This document shows, piece after piece, positions 889 through 11,927 of a stretch of 35,008 nucleotides of DNA. The first letter of the stretch is position 1; the number at the start of each line of letters is the position of its first letter. The position numbers were made by a program, and so were the translations under genes. The notes under the pieces are model-generated. The model was not told where the DNA came from. It saw only the letters and a program-made list of their open reading frames with translations, and ran no database searches. This DNA comes from Nocardia cyriacigeorgica NBRC 100375 (lineage in GTDB: Bacteria; Actinomycetota; Actinomycetes; Mycobacteriales; Mycobacteriaceae): NCBI RefSeq assembly GCF_000308555.1, contig NZ_BAFY01000124.1, forward strand, positions 1-35,008. The letters run 5' to 3'.

Positions 889-1146
889 TCACTCGTCGTC
901 GAGGCCGGCCGACAGATAGGCGGCGGCGGCGAGCCACTGCCTGCAGCGCGGGCCGTGTACCTCGTGGACGCGCAGGATTTCGCGGGCCTGCCGGTAGGTG
1001 AGGCCCGGCGGTTCGGAACCGCAATCGGCGGTGGCTGGTTCCGGTGCCGGGTAGTGGCGCAGGGCATCGGGAAGGTGCCGCAGGGTCTCGACGCCGGAGG
1101 AACCGGAGATCGCGACTCGGCGGGGAGTTCGGAATGGCTGGCTCAT
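889..1146 (-). CDS. Small hypothetical protein (85 aa) with an operator-bearing promoter
   Basis: An 85-residue protein starting MSQPFRTPRRVAI and ending with a more conserved-looking part, GLTYRQAREILRVHEVHG followed by CRQWLAAAAYLSAGLDDE. I do not recognise a named domain. The start at 1146 is chosen over an in-frame ATG at 1164 because GAGGGG sits 8 nt upstream of it. No signal peptide or membrane segment is visible. A TTGCAT/TAAACT promoter overlapping the palindrome at 1258-1275 lies 90-120 bp upstream, which links the gene to the DUF397-XRE pair at 1926-3121. GC-rich shadow frames on the other strand lack ribosome-binding sites. Confidence 0.6.
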   Translation of the reverse strand: MSQPFRTPRRVAISGSSGVETLRHLPDALRHYPAPEPATADCGSEPPGLTYRQAREILRVHEVHGPRCRQWLAAAAYLSAGLDDE

Positions 1147-1236: not shown

Positions 1237-1266
1237 AGTTTAAGTGTCTGTAGCTTGCAAATGCAA
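1237..1266 (-). promoter_or_regulatory. Predicted promoter of the 85-aa gene
   Basis: On the minus strand, TTGCAT (1266-1261) is followed after 18 bp by TAAACT (1242-1237), giving a leader of roughly 85 nt before the start at 1146. The -35 hexamer lies inside the palindrome at 1258-1275. The same arrangement, TTGCAT-18 bp-TAGACT, occurs at 3683-3654 in front of the other small gene, which strengthens both calls. No start site is measured. Confidence 0.55.
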
Positions 1267-1275
1267 GTACATTTG
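1258..1275. promoter_or_regulatory. Palindromic operator, copy 1
   Basis: CAAATG (1258-1263) and CATTTG (1270-1275) form a perfect inverted repeat around the spacer CAAGTA. Copies with the same core occur at 1851-1868 (spacer CAAGAA) and 3675-3692 (CAGATG/CATCTG, spacer CAAGCA). All three lie upstream of small genes in one 3-kb region and I found no further copy in the window. It is likely bound by the XRE protein encoded at 2234-3121; that link is inference. Confidence 0.65.
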
Positions 1276-1828: not shown

Positions 1829-1837
1829 TGCTATCGT
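1829..1837 (+). promoter_or_regulatory. Possible extended -10 element for the DUF397-XRE operon
   Basis: TGC followed by TATCGT (1832-1837) resembles an extended -10 and would place the start of transcription near 1844, inside the operator array at 1839-1880. That position fits autorepression. No good -35 is visible in the GC tract upstream, so the call is weak. Confidence 0.35.
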
Positions 1838-1838
1838 C

Positions 1839-1880
1839 CAGATGGGTGTGCAAATGCAAGAACATTTGCGTGTGCATCTG
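1839..1880. promoter_or_regulatory. Four-half-site operator array of the DUF397-XRE operon
   Basis: Four hexamers stand at exact 12-bp steps: CAGATG at 1839, CAAATG at 1851, CATTTG at 1863 and CATCTG at 1875. The outer pair and the inner pair are each perfect inverted repeats, so the whole 42-bp element is one nested palindrome with 6-bp spacers. The inner pair is the motif at 1258-1275, and the outer hexamers equal the arms of the site at 3675-3692. The array ends 45 bp before the DUF397 start. It probably binds the XRE-DUF5753 protein as two dimers. Confidence 0.7.
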
Positions 1881-1925
1881 CAAACACTGCGTCTCTGTAA
1901 ACGTCGTAACCGAGGAGTGGGTCCA

Positions 1926-2147
1926 ATGGCGGAGTCAGTCACCAACCGCGTCGCCGGAGCATGGCGCAAGAGCACGTTCAGCAATCCGAGCGGTAACTGC
2001 GTGGAAATGGCGGAGGCGACCAACAACCTGGTGGCCGTGCGCAATTCGCGCGAGCCCGACAGCGGCATCCTGTTCTACACCCGGCCCGAGATCGACGCTT
2101 TCATCCGCGGCGCGAAGGCTGGAGAGTTCGACGATCTGGCTAGCTGA
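1926..2147 (+). CDS. DUF397 domain protein
   Basis: A 73-residue protein beginning MAESVTNRVAGAWRKSTFS, followed by NPSGNCVEMAE, VAVRNSREPDSG and a C-terminal YTRPEIDAFIRGAKAGEFD. This is the usual DUF397 pattern (W-x-K-S-x-x-S, G-x-C-V-E, V-R-D/N-S, F-x-x-G). The start at 1926 has GAGGAG 8 nt upstream; a longer in-frame reading back to 1734 would translate the operator array and is rejected. It lies 86 bp before an XRE-DUF5753 gene. Such pairs are widespread in actinomycetes (for example the Scr1/Scr2-type pair of Streptomyces), where the DUF397 protein is thought to modulate its XRE partner. Confidence 0.92.
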   Translation: MAESVTNRVAGAWRKSTFSNPSGNCVEMAEATNNLVAVRNSREPDSGILFYTRPEIDAFIRGAKAGEFDDLAS

Positions 2148-2233: not shown

Positions 2234-3121
2234 ATGATCGCAGAGCCCGATGACGATGGTCGTGTGCAATCCGTTGTCGCGGAACGTGGTCCGACGGTGC
2301 TACGGATCGCCCTCGGTGGCCAGCTACGCAAGCTGCGGGAGGGCAAGGGCATCACTCGCGAGGCAGCGGGCGACGCCATCCGCGGCTCACACGCCAAGAT
2401 CAGCCGGCTCGAACTCGGGCGCACCGGCTTCAAGGAACGGGACATCCGGGATCTGCTCACCCTCTACGGCGTCCATGATCCCGACGAGCGCGAGTCGTTC
2501 CTGGAACTCGCGCGCAAAGCGAACGAACCAGGATGGTGGCACCGCTACAGCGACCTGCTTCCGTCCTGGTTCGGCACCTATCTGGGGCTCGAGCAGGCCG
2601 CCACCAAAATCCGCACCTATGAGGCGCATCTGGTGCCCGGCCTGCTGCAGACCCCGGAATACACGCGGGCGGTGGTCACCCTCGGGTACGAGGACGCCGA
2701 CACCGATCGCCGCGTCGCGGTGCGTCAGCGCAGGCAGGAAATCCTGCACCGCTCGGATCCGCCCTTCGTGTGGGCGGTGATCGACGAGGCCGCGCTGCAC
2801 CGCCCGGTCGGCGGCGCCGACGTGCATCGTGCGCAGATGCACCATCTCGTCGAACTGGCCCAGCTGCCCAACGTCACCATTCAGGTGGTTCCCTACTCGG
2901 CGGGTGAACACGCCGCGGCGGGCAGCTCGTTCAGCATCCTGCGCTTCGCCGAGCCCGAGTTGCCCGACATCGTCTACCTCGAGCATCTGACCAGCGCGCT
3001 GTACCTGGACCGCCGCGAGGATCTGGCGCTGTACCTGTCGGTGATGGACCGGCTCAGTGTGCAGGCCGCCCGGCCGGAACGGTCGATCGAGATCATCAGC
3101 GACTACGCGAAAGGCCTGTGA
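2234..3121 (+). CDS. XRE-family HTH regulator with DUF5753 domain
   Basis: A 295-residue cytoplasmic DNA-binding protein. An N-terminal XRE helix-turn-helix spans about residues 22-82, including LGGQLRKLREGKGITREAAG and IRGSHAKISRLELGRTGF. The DUF5753 domain follows from about residue 105, recognised by WFGTYLGLEQAATKIRTYE, the VPGLLQTPEYTRAV motif, RRQEIL, and FSILRFAEPELPDIVYLEH. ATG at 2234 has GGAG 8 nt upstream. It is co-oriented with and probably co-transcribed with the DUF397 gene. It is the natural candidate to bind the palindromes at 1258, 1839 and 3675. Its paralogue at 10974-11927 has no such sites nearby. The family is certain; the target sites are inferred. Confidence 0.93.
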   Translation: MIAEPDDDGRVQSVVAERGPTVLRIALGGQLRKLREGKGITREAAGDAIRGSHAKISRLELGRTGFKERDIRDLLTLYGVHDPDERESFLELARKANEPGWWHRYSDLLPSWFGTYLGLEQAATKIRTYEAHLVPGLLQTPEYTRAVVTLGYEDADTDRRVAVRQRRQEILHRSDPPFVWAVIDEAALHRPVGGADVHRAQMHHLVELAQLPNVTIQVVPYSAGEHAAAGSSFSILRFAEPELPDIVYLEHLTSALYLDRREDLALYLSVMDRLSVQAARPERSIEIISDYAKGL

Positions 3122-3245: not shown

Positions 3246-3551
3246 CTATTCCTTGATGAAGCTGGAGGCGACGCGCCAGAAGGTCGCGCTCTGCAACGAG
3301 GTGAAATCCCAATCGTCGGCCAGTGCGTGCACATGGGTGACGATCTGGTCGATATCGAAATCGTAACGAGTTGCCGCACCGGTGGATTCGATGGCGTCGA
3401 TGACGAATTCGACGGCACTTTCCCTGGTGGGGGGCTGGATTCGCTGGCCACCGCGGGCCGAGATCGTACTCATATCAATACCGTTCGCCGACCGGGCAGC
3501 CGGTGCGGGATCGGCAATCGCGAACCGGCCGCTGGGTAATGGTTGTTGCAT
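3246..3551 (-). CDS. Small hypothetical protein (101 aa), probable member of the DUF397-XRE regulon
   Basis: A 101-residue protein starting MQQPLPSGRFAIADPAP, with a disordered-looking N-terminus and an acidic, probably helical C-terminal part (SAVEFVIDAIESTG, YDFDIDQIVTHVHALADDWDF, FWRVASSFIKE). I recognise no family. GAGGGG lies 5 nt before the ATG at 3551; an internal ATG (MSTISARGG) has no comparable ribosome-binding site. The gene is convergent with the XRE gene and shares its terminator. A predicted promoter carrying the same operator core lies about 100-140 bp upstream. It has no signal peptide or transmembrane segment. Confidence 0.65.
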   Translation of the reverse strand: MQQPLPSGRFAIADPAPAARSANGIDMSTISARGGQRIQPPTRESAVEFVIDAIESTGAATRYDFDIDQIVTHVHALADDWDFTSLQSATFWRVASSFIKE

Positions 3552-3653: not shown

Positions 3654-3683
3654 AGTCTAAGTTCATGTGCCTTTCAGATGCAA
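3654..3683 (-). promoter_or_regulatory. Predicted promoter of the 101-aa gene
   Basis: On the minus strand TTGCAT (3683-3678) is followed after 18 bp by TAGACT (3659-3654). It has the same hexamer, the same spacing and a one-base-different -10 compared with the promoter at 1266-1237, and again the -35 lies within the palindrome. Predicted leader is about 95 nt to the start at 3551. Confidence 0.55.
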
Positions 3684-3692
3684 GCACATCTG
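3675..3692. promoter_or_regulatory. Palindromic operator, copy 3
   Basis: CAGATG (3675-3680) and CATCTG (3687-3692) flank the spacer CAAGCA as a perfect inverted repeat. The arms equal the outer hexamers of the array at 1839-1880, and the spacer differs by one base from those of the other copies. It covers the -35 of the promoter for the gene at 3246-3551. Confidence 0.65.
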
Positions 3693-5121: not shown

Positions 5122-6249
5122 GTGACGCGGATTCGGATCTCGACGGTGACAGCGGGCGCCGTGCTGGCGGTGACCGTTGTGCTGGCGAATCCGGTGGCCG
5201 CCGCGGCGGCGGAGGCGCCGGGCGCGCTCATCGGGGCGGTGGAGTTGTCGGGACGGCTGTCGGTGCCTGCGGCGGCGTCGGCGCAACGATTGACCTATTG
5301 GTCTCGGGGCCCGCGTGCGCCGATGCAGAGTACGGCGGCGGTGTATCTGCCGCCGGGCCCGGCGCCGGCGGGTGGCTGGCCGATCGTGGCCTACGCGCAC
5401 GGTTCGGTCGGTATCGCCGATCATTGCGCGTTCACCGAAAACCCTCGCGACTACTACCTGGATACTCTCTATCCCCGGCTGCTCGAGGCCGGATACGCGG
5501 TGGTGATCTCCGATTACGTCGGGCTGGGAACACCGGGAACCCATCCGTATCTGGACGGGCCGTCGCAGGCGCGCAGTGTGATCGACGGTGTGCGGGCCGC
5601 GCGTTCGGCCTTCCCCGAACTCAGCTCCCGGTGGGCGGTGCTCGGCCAATCCCAGGGCGGGCAGACCGCGCTGTTCACCGCGCATATCGCCCCTGCCGAC
5701 GCCCCCGAACTCGATTTCCGTGGTGCCGCGGCGACCGGTGCGCCGTCGAATCTGGAGCTGGCGGTGCCGCTGGCCGGCCCGTGGATTCCCCGGCTGCCGT
5801 TGCGGCGCACCACCACATATTTCGGCCTGCTGCTCGCCGGCTTGCGGGTCACCACACCCGAACTCGATATCGACAGCTACCTGACCCCGGTGGGACAGGA
5901 TGTGCTGCGGATTGTGGAGTCCGAGTGCGTCCCCGAAGCCGCCGCGCGGGTCGATGAGATCGCCATCGGTGCGATGCTGAAGCGCCCACTCGACGATCCG
6001 GCGCTGTGGGCGGCCGCCGAGGCGATGATGCGGATACCGACCTCGGGCTACACGACGCCGTTGTTCGTGGCTCAGGGTCTCACCGATCGGGAGGTGCCCG
6101 CGCCGTTGAGCGCGAAACTCATCGCCGAGCTGCACGCCTCGGGAACCGATATGCAGGTGGGGGTGTATCCGGGCGATCACCTCGAGGCCGCCGATCAAGC
6201 CTTACCGGATGTGCTGGTGTTCCTGCATCGCATCCTCGGCAATGGGTGA
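5122..6249 (+). CDS. Secreted lipase/esterase of the alpha/beta-hydrolase fold
   Basis: A 375-residue exported hydrolase. A signal peptide (VTRIRISTVTAGAV then VVLANPVAAAAAEAPG) is followed by VAYAHGSVGIADHC, the nucleophile motif GQSQGG (Ser177), LTDREVP (Asp322) and GDHLEA (His353), a complete triad in order. This is the secretory lipase (LIP, PF03583) type of fold common in Nocardia. GTG at 5122 is preferred because it places the signal peptide at the N-terminus; an in-frame ATG at 5038 would add 28 residues. Neither has a strong ribosome-binding site. Likely substrates are acylglycerols or other esters outside the cell. Confidence 0.82.
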   Translation: MTRIRISTVTAGAVLAVTVVLANPVAAAAAEAPGALIGAVELSGRLSVPAAASAQRLTYWSRGPRAPMQSTAAVYLPPGPAPAGGWPIVAYAHGSVGIADHCAFTENPRDYYLDTLYPRLLEAGYAVVISDYVGLGTPGTHPYLDGPSQARSVIDGVRAARSAFPELSSRWAVLGQSQGGQTALFTAHIAPADAPELDFRGAAATGAPSNLELAVPLAGPWIPRLPLRRTTTYFGLLLAGLRVTTPELDIDSYLTPVGQDVLRIVESECVPEAAARVDEIAIGAMLKRPLDDPALWAAAEAMMRIPTSGYTTPLFVAQGLTDREVPAPLSAKLIAELHASGTDMQVGVYPGDHLEAADQALPDVLVFLHRILGNG

Positions 6250-10973: not shown

Positions 10974-11927
10974 ATGGGTGCCTCGGAGCTACGTTCTGTC
11001 CCTACCGACATTCCGCGGGCGGCGGGGGAGCGGACCCCGGCGATCGACGGCGGACCGACCGTCTTACGGATGGTGCTCGGCGGCCGGTTACGGCGACTGC
11101 GCGAAGCCGGCAATATCACCAGGGAAGCGGCCGGTGAGCACATCCGCGGCTCGCACTCCAAGATCAGCCGCATCGAACTGGGCCGCACCCCCATCCGCGA
11201 ACGCGATCTGCTCGACCTGCTCGCGCTCTACGGTGTGACCGACCCGGAAGAGATCGACGAATTCCGCAGACTCGCAGCGGAAGCGGGCAGCTCGGGTTGG
11301 TGGCACCGCGATAGCGACTGGCTGCCGAAATGGTTCGACATGTACCTGGGGCTGGAACAGGCCGCGGCGATGATCCGCGGTTACGAACCGCGTGCGGTGC
11401 CCGAACTGTTGCAGACCGCCGACTATGCCCGCGCCCTGATCCGGCTCGCCCACCCCACCGAATCCGAGGACGGCATCGAGCGCCGGGTCGCGTTGCGGAT
11501 GCGCCGCCAGGAGATCCTCACCCGGCCCGACCCACCCCGGCTGTGGCTGATGGTGGAGGAGGCGGCGTTGCGCCGCCGCATCGGCGGTACCGCGGTGTGG
11601 AGTGAACAGCTCGACCGCTTGATGGCGGTGGTGGAGCAGCCGAACGTGACGGTGCAGCTGCTCGCCGACCACCTCGGCGGCCCTGCGCTGACCGAGGGCG
11701 CGTTCACCATGCTGCGCTTCGCCGAGCCCGATCTGCCCGACATCGTCTATATCCAGCAGCTGACCGGCGCACTGTATCTGGACAAACGCGCCGACCTGGA
11801 CGCCTACCGGGCAGTGGCCAACCAGCTGTCGGTGCATGCCACCCCGCCCGAACACACCCCCGGACTGTTGCGGGCGCTGCGCCATCGGGAGCCGCCGATC
11901 CTGCGGCATCCCACCGGCGATCAGTAG
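10974..11927 (+). CDS. Second XRE-family HTH regulator with DUF5753 domain
   Basis: A 317-residue paralogue of the regulator at 2234-3121, strongly alike in the HTH (LGGRLRRLREAGNITREAAG, IRGSHSKISRIELGRTPI) and in DUF5753 (WFDMYLGLEQAAAMIRGYE, RRQEIL, FTMLRFAEPDLPDIVYIQ). It has an N-terminal extension of about 25 residues and a longer C-terminus. GGGAG lies 9 nt before the ATG at 10974. No DUF397 gene is adjacent, and the CAAATG/CATTTG palindrome is not found upstream, so its operator and partner are probably elsewhere. It is separated by 86 bp from the HadAB-like gene and could be read through from it. Confidence 0.92.
   Translation: MGASELRSVPTDIPRAAGERTPAIDGGPTVLRMVLGGRLRRLREAGNITREAAGEHIRGSHSKISRIELGRTPIRERDLLDLLALYGVTDPEEIDEFRRLAAEAGSSGWWHRDSDWLPKWFDMYLGLEQAAAMIRGYEPRAVPELLQTADYARALIRLAHPTESEDGIERRVALRMRRQEILTRPDPPRLWLMVEEAALRRRIGGTAVWSEQLDRLMAVVEQPNVTVQLLADHLGGPALTEGAFTMLRFAEPDLPDIVYIQQLTGALYLDKRADLDAYRAVANQLSVHATPPEHTPGLLRALRHREPPILRHPTGDQ

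Follow-up and report, generated by a model that had tools for sequence, protein, structure and literature searches.

The four-armed array at positions 1839–1880 is probably an autoregulatory operator. The neighbouring XRE-DUF5753 protein, a Sco1979-family regulator, is predicted to bind an 18-bp core that occurs in the array and at two sibling sites, and to repress three promoters. Sequence comparison establishes that three cores exist, that they are conserved, and that they stand at fixed positions beside predicted promoter boxes. All coordinates refer to the window, the whole stretch of 35,008 nucleotides of Nocardia cyriacigeorgica NBRC 100375 (contig NZ_BAFY01000124.1) that was analysed.

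Three phased sites in the window

The first-pass annotation described four half-sites at exact 12-bp steps, forming an outer and an inner perfect inverted repeat, and judged a chance origin unlikely. The sequence bears this out: CAGATG (1839–1844), CAAATG (1851–1856), CATTTG (1863–1868), and CATCTG (1875–1880) lie exactly where they had been placed, and each pair is a perfect inverted repeat. The array is real and is not a chance arrangement, as the four-arm pattern at up to three mismatches matches once in the window versus in none of 100 dinucleotide-preserving shuffles. A separate site at 3675 has the arms ascribed to it, and a third site (1258–1275), whose arms are the inner arms of the array, had been overlooked.

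Of the 128 CANNTG hexamers in the window, those spaced at 12 bp form three runs, starting at 1258 (two copies), 1839 (four), and 3675 (two); runs at any other step from 7 to 30 never exceed two copies. Three 18-bp cores, starting at 1258, 1851, and 3675 (sites A, B, and C), fit CARATGCAAGNACATYTG, which at up to three mismatches is found three times in the window versus 0.11 expected. Their inner 6 bp are CAAGTA, CAAGAA, and CAAGCA. Genome-wide, CANATG-N6-CATNTG occurs at five places, three of them within this 2.4-kb stretch. The features of the locus are as follows.

889–1146, minus strand: left small gene, 85 aa, no family found (Pfam, NCBIfam)
1237–1242, minus strand: TAAACT, predicted as the left gene's -10 box, at a distance of 15 nt from site A (TANNNT, 64/67 loci)
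1258–1275, plus strand: core of site A, CAAATGCAAGTACATTTG, preceding the left small gene (pattern search and comparison)
1261–1266, minus strand: TTGCAT, a possible -35 box within site A, spaced 18 bp from the -10 box (sequence)
1829–1837, plus strand: TGCTATCGT, predicted as the extended -10 box for the DUF397-XRE operon (TGNTANNNT, 74/74 loci)
1839–1844, plus strand: half-site h1, CAGATG (sequence)
1851–1868, plus strand: site B core CAAATG-CAAGAA-CATTTG, comprising h2, centre, and h3 (core pattern search and comparison)
1875–1880, plus strand: half-site h4, CATCTG, 12 bp beyond h3 (comparison of DUF397 promoters)
1912–1917, plus strand: GAGGAG, likely ribosome-binding site of the DUF397 gene (sequence)
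1926–2147, plus strand: DUF397 protein, 73 aa (Pfam PF04149, 66.7 bits, cut-off 24)
2234–3121, plus strand: XRE-DUF5753 regulator, 295 aa, Sco1979 family, likely binder (PF13560, PF19054, NF058600.1)
3246–3551, minus strand: right small gene, 101 aa, no family found (Pfam, NCBIfam)
3654–3659, minus strand: TAGACT, predicted as the right gene's -10 box, at a distance of 15 nt from site C (TANNNT, 70/70 loci)
3675–3692, plus strand: core of site C, CAGATGCAAGCACATCTG, preceding the right small gene (pattern search and comparison)
3678–3683, minus strand: TTGCAT, a possible -35 box within site C, spaced 18 bp from the -10 box (sequence)

Genes and proteins of the module

The DUF397 and XRE genes are adjacent and score above the cut-offs of PF04149, PF13560, and PF19054, as in XRE-DUF397 pairs of the WhiJ/BldB type, and the conserved array sits at their predicted promoter. 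The XRE protein also matches the NCBIfam Sco1979 equivalog NF058600.1 with 406.1 bits, above the curated cut-off of 350; a close solved relative was not found, the best match being ClgR (E 0.01). DUF397 is common in this genome (24 matches). PADLOC, consulted on the question of a type II toxin-antitoxin system, gave no match.

The two small proteins match no Pfam or NCBIfam family, including any DNA-binding family, and the right one has only weak PHROG matches of unknown function (best E 0.01). The right gene could alternatively encode 75 aa from its second Met, which is invariant in the alignment. We found 101 homologues of the left protein and 19 of the right, all from Nocardia or Nocardiaceae wherever the source names the organism. 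The left protein contains a C-x18-H-x2-H-x3-C set in which both H and the last C are invariant in 97 rows and the first C is conserved in at least 90%, possibly forming a metal site. Structure predictions were of low confidence (mean pLDDT 66.7 left, 68.4 right), and a fold search with the predicted right protein, at that same mean pLDDT, returned no match with E below 5.

Another XRE protein of the Sco1979 family is encoded at 10974–11927 (plus strand; 358.9 bits) with a recognition helix, SHSKISR, close to that of the module XRE; CANATG-N6-CATNTG was not found near it in the window. On the minus strand, 1–739 looks by eye like the first part of a PucR-like regulator truncated at the edge of the window.

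Conservation in Nocardia and the wider order

A Nocardia motif search, as the first-pass annotation had proposed, finds the exact core in 146 of 148 genomes, with one to four copies each; a reversed-pattern control gave one match. Among 200 genomes of the order, three of which are Nocardia, just one of the 197 others has an exact core, CACATGCAAGTGCATGTG, which looks like chance.

For closer comparison we used the 80 loci that carry the best 80 of 184 XRE relatives. In this set, CANATG-N6-CATNTG with the centre left free occurs 139 times, and 138 of these sites have a centre starting with CAAG even though all six bases were free. The 6-bp spacers of the original description are therefore constant in length, but the central one is no free spacer. 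The exact form CANATGCAAGNNCATNTG is present in 73 of these 80 loci. It is absent from L061 and L064, which have near-cores with CG replacing CA at all three sites, and from L100 and L106–L109, which were matched by neither the DUF397 nor the small-gene queries and are apparently paralogous. The hexamers and their 12-bp spacing are thus conserved at orthologous loci.

The cores track the same genes despite changed gene spacing: compared with L034, the right gene of L035 is about 2 kb more distant, and its core is still next to it. Distances from core to promoter box are fixed or nearly so, and those from core to core are variable. These observations, and the presence of the same genes genus-wide, leave a mobile element or recombination site scarcely conceivable as the explanation of the sites, although in most genomes the cores share one orientation and bracket the locus.

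Exceptional genomes mostly fit the operator reading. G119 yields no XRE match at 1e-80, but its two cores flank an XRE gene that is matched in two pieces and adjoins DUF397 and both small genes; the two-piece match suggests that this gene may be broken or misassembled. G124 has no exact core, and two one-mismatch cores bracket its XRE gene. In G133, an XRE match at 1e-80 and an exact core are both missing. In L185 and L195, both from G119, the XRE gene appears as two overlapping pieces and both cores are kept.

Additional exact or near cores were inspected at 11 loci, and at none of these did the promoter boxes follow the module's arrangement (for L001, which is C1:8827 in the present genome, one orientation was covered), so the core alone is no marker of module promoters. 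Those extra-core loci that were compared with the module proteins gave a sole match, a 31% XRE relative in L205. In L196 and L178 (position 1501), the core adjoins what looks by eye like a different regulator-like gene, without the module promoter layout. An additional core is seen in L059 and L080 between the left gene and the PucR-like side.

Predicted promoter layout at the three sites

Homologues with enough upstream DNA were available in the set (best 80 of 184 relatives) for the left gene in 73 of 80 loci, for DUF397 in 75, and for the right gene in 70. A usable core was present in 67/73, 74/75, and 70/70 of these, respectively; the six left and one DUF397 rows without one were dropped from later counts. 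On the gene strand, TANNNT and the core are separated by exactly 15 nt in 64 of 67 loci at site A and in 70 of 70 at site C (loci from the best 80 of 184 relatives), TAGACT and TAAACT being the commonest forms. With the predicted -10 box at exactly this distance, the core at A and C would cover the -35 region. At site B, all 74 loci from the same best 80 of 184 have an extended -10 box, TGNTANNNT, whose end precedes the core by 12–15 nt, where shuffling gives about 1.7.

The composite pattern TGNTANNNT-N(12-15)-core-N6-CANNTG has a single match in each of 121 of 148 Nocardia genomes and no control matches. It was not found in the other 27 of the 148; some named loci have TGTAAG within the site-B core, and such variants escape this pattern. 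What had been read as a single operator is instead one of a three-promoter set, with the two-arm form standing at two other genes.

Counting the last base of the predicted -10 box as -7, which makes the starts predictions as well, we place the core at A and C at approximately -45 to -28 and the core at B at approximately +7 to +24, with h1 near the start and h4 at approximately +31 to +36. The palindromes of site B would be transcribed, as the -10 box is just upstream, which raises the alternative that the array is an RNA element that exerts control through a hairpin in the DUF397-XRE leader. At A and C, however, this core is upstream of the predicted start and would stay untranscribed, and we consider an RNA element very improbable.

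Arms, centre, and symmetry

The array is not conserved uniformly. Among the DUF397 promoters of the best 80 of 184 relatives, h4 (CANNTG, 24 bp after the core start) is kept at site B in 73 of 74, and h1 at -12 is an exact CANATG in 11 of 74. The corresponding positions at the other sites are nearly empty: an exact h4 occurs in fewer than 4 of 67 loci at A and fewer than 4 of 70 at C, and allowing one mismatch to CATNTG gives 6/67 and 0/70. With one mismatch, h1 is present in 14/74 at B, 0/67 at A, and 0/70 at C. The four-arm array of the window is, on these counts, the fullest form of a mostly three-arm array. A rough parsimony count on the XRE tree gives four changes for h1, and all rows with h1 fall in one 39-row clade. 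The nested four-arm design that had been proposed as a new regulatory code does not hold as a general rule, with arm 1 exact in 11/74 and arm 4 kept in 73/74; as judged from sequence, the nested two-dimer arrangement is a form found in part of the genus. Two cooperative dimers at the array of the window are possible.

With the inner bases left free, the left arm at site A has A before TG in 67/67 and the right arm has the mirrored T in 67/67; at site C the counts are 66/70 and 70/70. These mirrored bases indicate that the half-sites are inverted and not direct. Site B has a tandem component as well, since the 16-mer around h2 repeats 24 bp downstream with a mean identity of 0.63 versus 0.06–0.42 at other offsets from 6 to 40 bp. 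We considered a direct-repeat reading of the operator and prefer an inverted core with an extra arm, because the inner bases at A and C follow inverted symmetry. A general 12-bp rule in the DUF397 upstream regions of this genome was also set aside, the signal being weak and confounded by codon periodicity.

Comparison with known systems

XRE-DUF397 pairs of the WhiJ/BldB type are numerous in actinobacteria, and to our knowledge few of their binding sites are known. Among better known XRE-type helix-turn-helix proteins, lambda CI and P22 c2 read inverted half-sites of 18-bp operators over a promoter; unlike these, the module has a conserved CAAG centre and, at one promoter only, extra half-sites at exact 12-bp steps.

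The first-pass annotation regarded the operator logic of DUF397/XRE pairs as nearly blank, which overlooks WhiJ9 of Streptomyces venezuelae. In the accessible part of PMC10294661, WhiJ9 binds three direct repeats, CGXXCTCAAC, mapped to one intergenic region downstream of its own promoter, and the data are consistent with autorepression. Like the module, the iosA-whiJ9-bldB9 locus places a WhiJ-type XRE beside DUF397 and a small orphan protein, and in both the site is downstream of the regulator's own promoter, which in our case is predicted. The loci differ in that WhiJ9 has direct repeats in one intergenic region, whereas in the module three promoters share an 18-bp inverted-repeat core, to which the regulator operon adds a half-site; the module small proteins have no detected kinship to known families. 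The WhiJ9-type repeat CGNNCTCAAC is absent from the module and matches the window only at 6105, 16598, and 24806, which is chance level.

The Streptomyces coelicolor pair SCO1979/SCO1978 is of the same family, as the window XRE passes the NCBIfam Sco1979 equivalog cut-off, and SCO1979 is cited in the portion of PMC12565409 available to us as autoregulatory, binding upstream of its own gene. The best-scoring loci of the class (L146–L154, probably Streptomyces) differ from the module in carrying CACTCTN9AGAGTG (8/9) together with a different recognition helix; this Streptomyces-type Sco1979 operator has no match in the window at up to two mismatches. Scr1/Scr2 (SCO4441/SCO4442) and other S. coelicolor pairs likewise consist of an XRE-DUF5753 and a DUF397 protein. 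Such pairs have been studied through overexpression and antibiotic production (PMC6262351, PMC10364602), and the accessible text of these two papers yielded no binding motif or site sequence, the word operator appearing twice in PMC6262351 without a sequence. As far as PMC10364602 could be consulted, 14 S. coelicolor DUF397 proteins had no clear toxic effect. Clusters of whiJ genes are described in the accessible part of PMC4255298.

An autoregulated XRE-DUF397 pair is a known kind of system; the operator anatomy, the three-promoter set, and the two small target genes appear new. A literature search conducted largely outside subscription papers found no description of this operator.

Proposed mechanism

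An XRE dimer on the core at A or C would cover the -35 box (candidate TTGCAT) and keep RNA polymerase off, and XRE bound at B, just after the extended -10 box, would prevent initiation or clearance. Autorepression would be tighter or more graded owing to the extra arms there. We infer that the XRE protein binds these sites, that it represses and does not activate, that the extra arms act cooperatively, and that DUF397 tunes binding.

The sign of control at A and C could differ from that at B, with the XRE protein repressing its own operon and activating the small genes, perhaps without its DUF397 partner. The nearest tested case points in this direction, so that A and C might be activator sites: loss of WhiJ9 raises whiJ9 transcription about two-fold, and WhiJ9 likely activates iosA, the small orphan protein gene (accessible part of PMC10294661). 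Operators A and C, moreover, are upstream of the predicted -10 box and B is downstream. However, in the same source a distance of 113 bp separates the WhiJ9 site from the iosA start downstream of it, whereas the core at A and C is centred near -36.5, over the -35 box, where occlusion is the simplest outcome. We consider activation from A and C rather unlikely and retain repression at all three promoters as the preferred reading.

More tentatively, the locus may be a genus-wide three-promoter switch, in which one XRE-DUF5753 exerts two control strengths, on two-arm effector sites and on its own three- or four-arm operon; the small effectors would form a new protein class, with the C-H-H-C set possibly serving metal-binding feedback. 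If this two-strength switch is true, the effectors and the regulator would respond at different protein levels. The base-level operator, predicted promoters, and small candidate regulon make the ligand, the role of the partner, and the sign of control directly testable, and two unnamed small protein families gain a first predicted regulatory link.

The likely reader of the core

Among the module proteins, only the XRE protein has a recognised DNA-binding domain (Pfam). The attribution of the array to the DUF397/XRE locus, with the XRE-DUF5753 protein as its predicted and most likely binder, has gained support from the conservation described above. The core at B has the same chromosomal orientation as those at A and C, though its gene points the opposite way. 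A -35 reading of CAAG fails at B for this reason, so the XRE protein probably contacts CAAG too.

The core might have another reader: an XRE paralogue that shares the helix, the DUF397 protein, or a small protein. L170, in the same genome, has a helix, GSHAKISRLELGR, identical to that of the module XRE, which makes cross-talk at shared sites possible, and the genome's 24 DUF397 matches offer further candidates. The exact cores of this genome, however, are at the module locus and none is near L170; BldB, a DUF397 protein, is reported in the accessible text of PMC10294661 as not binding DNA; and the small proteins match no DNA-binding family. Another reader is unlikely, and the module XRE remains the favoured one. 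The same-helix Nocardia paralogues (L170, L174, L100, and L106–L109) have no core in the surrounding DNA examined, so the helix is not sufficient to predict the operator.

At 27 Sco1979-family loci outside Nocardia, the type of recognition helix correlates with the type of operator, with exceptions. The helix APAT/TAAT accompanies CACTCTN9AGAGTG in 8/8 loci; SH(A/S)KISR accompanies a TGCAAG core in 4/5, and SESK does so in 1/13. The single locus with the helix THAT has neither operator type. The four cores of the SH(A/S)KISR type have outer arms that differ from those of Nocardia, with TGCAAGTAC common to them, and are not independent, as three of the four come from one genus. Within these limits, the correlation offers a start for predicting which pair reads which site. 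At L155–L158, XRE-DUF397 loci of another family in the class, TGCAAGTACNGATGCACGTGCA lies shortly before the DUF397 gene and is possibly a distant form of the operator.
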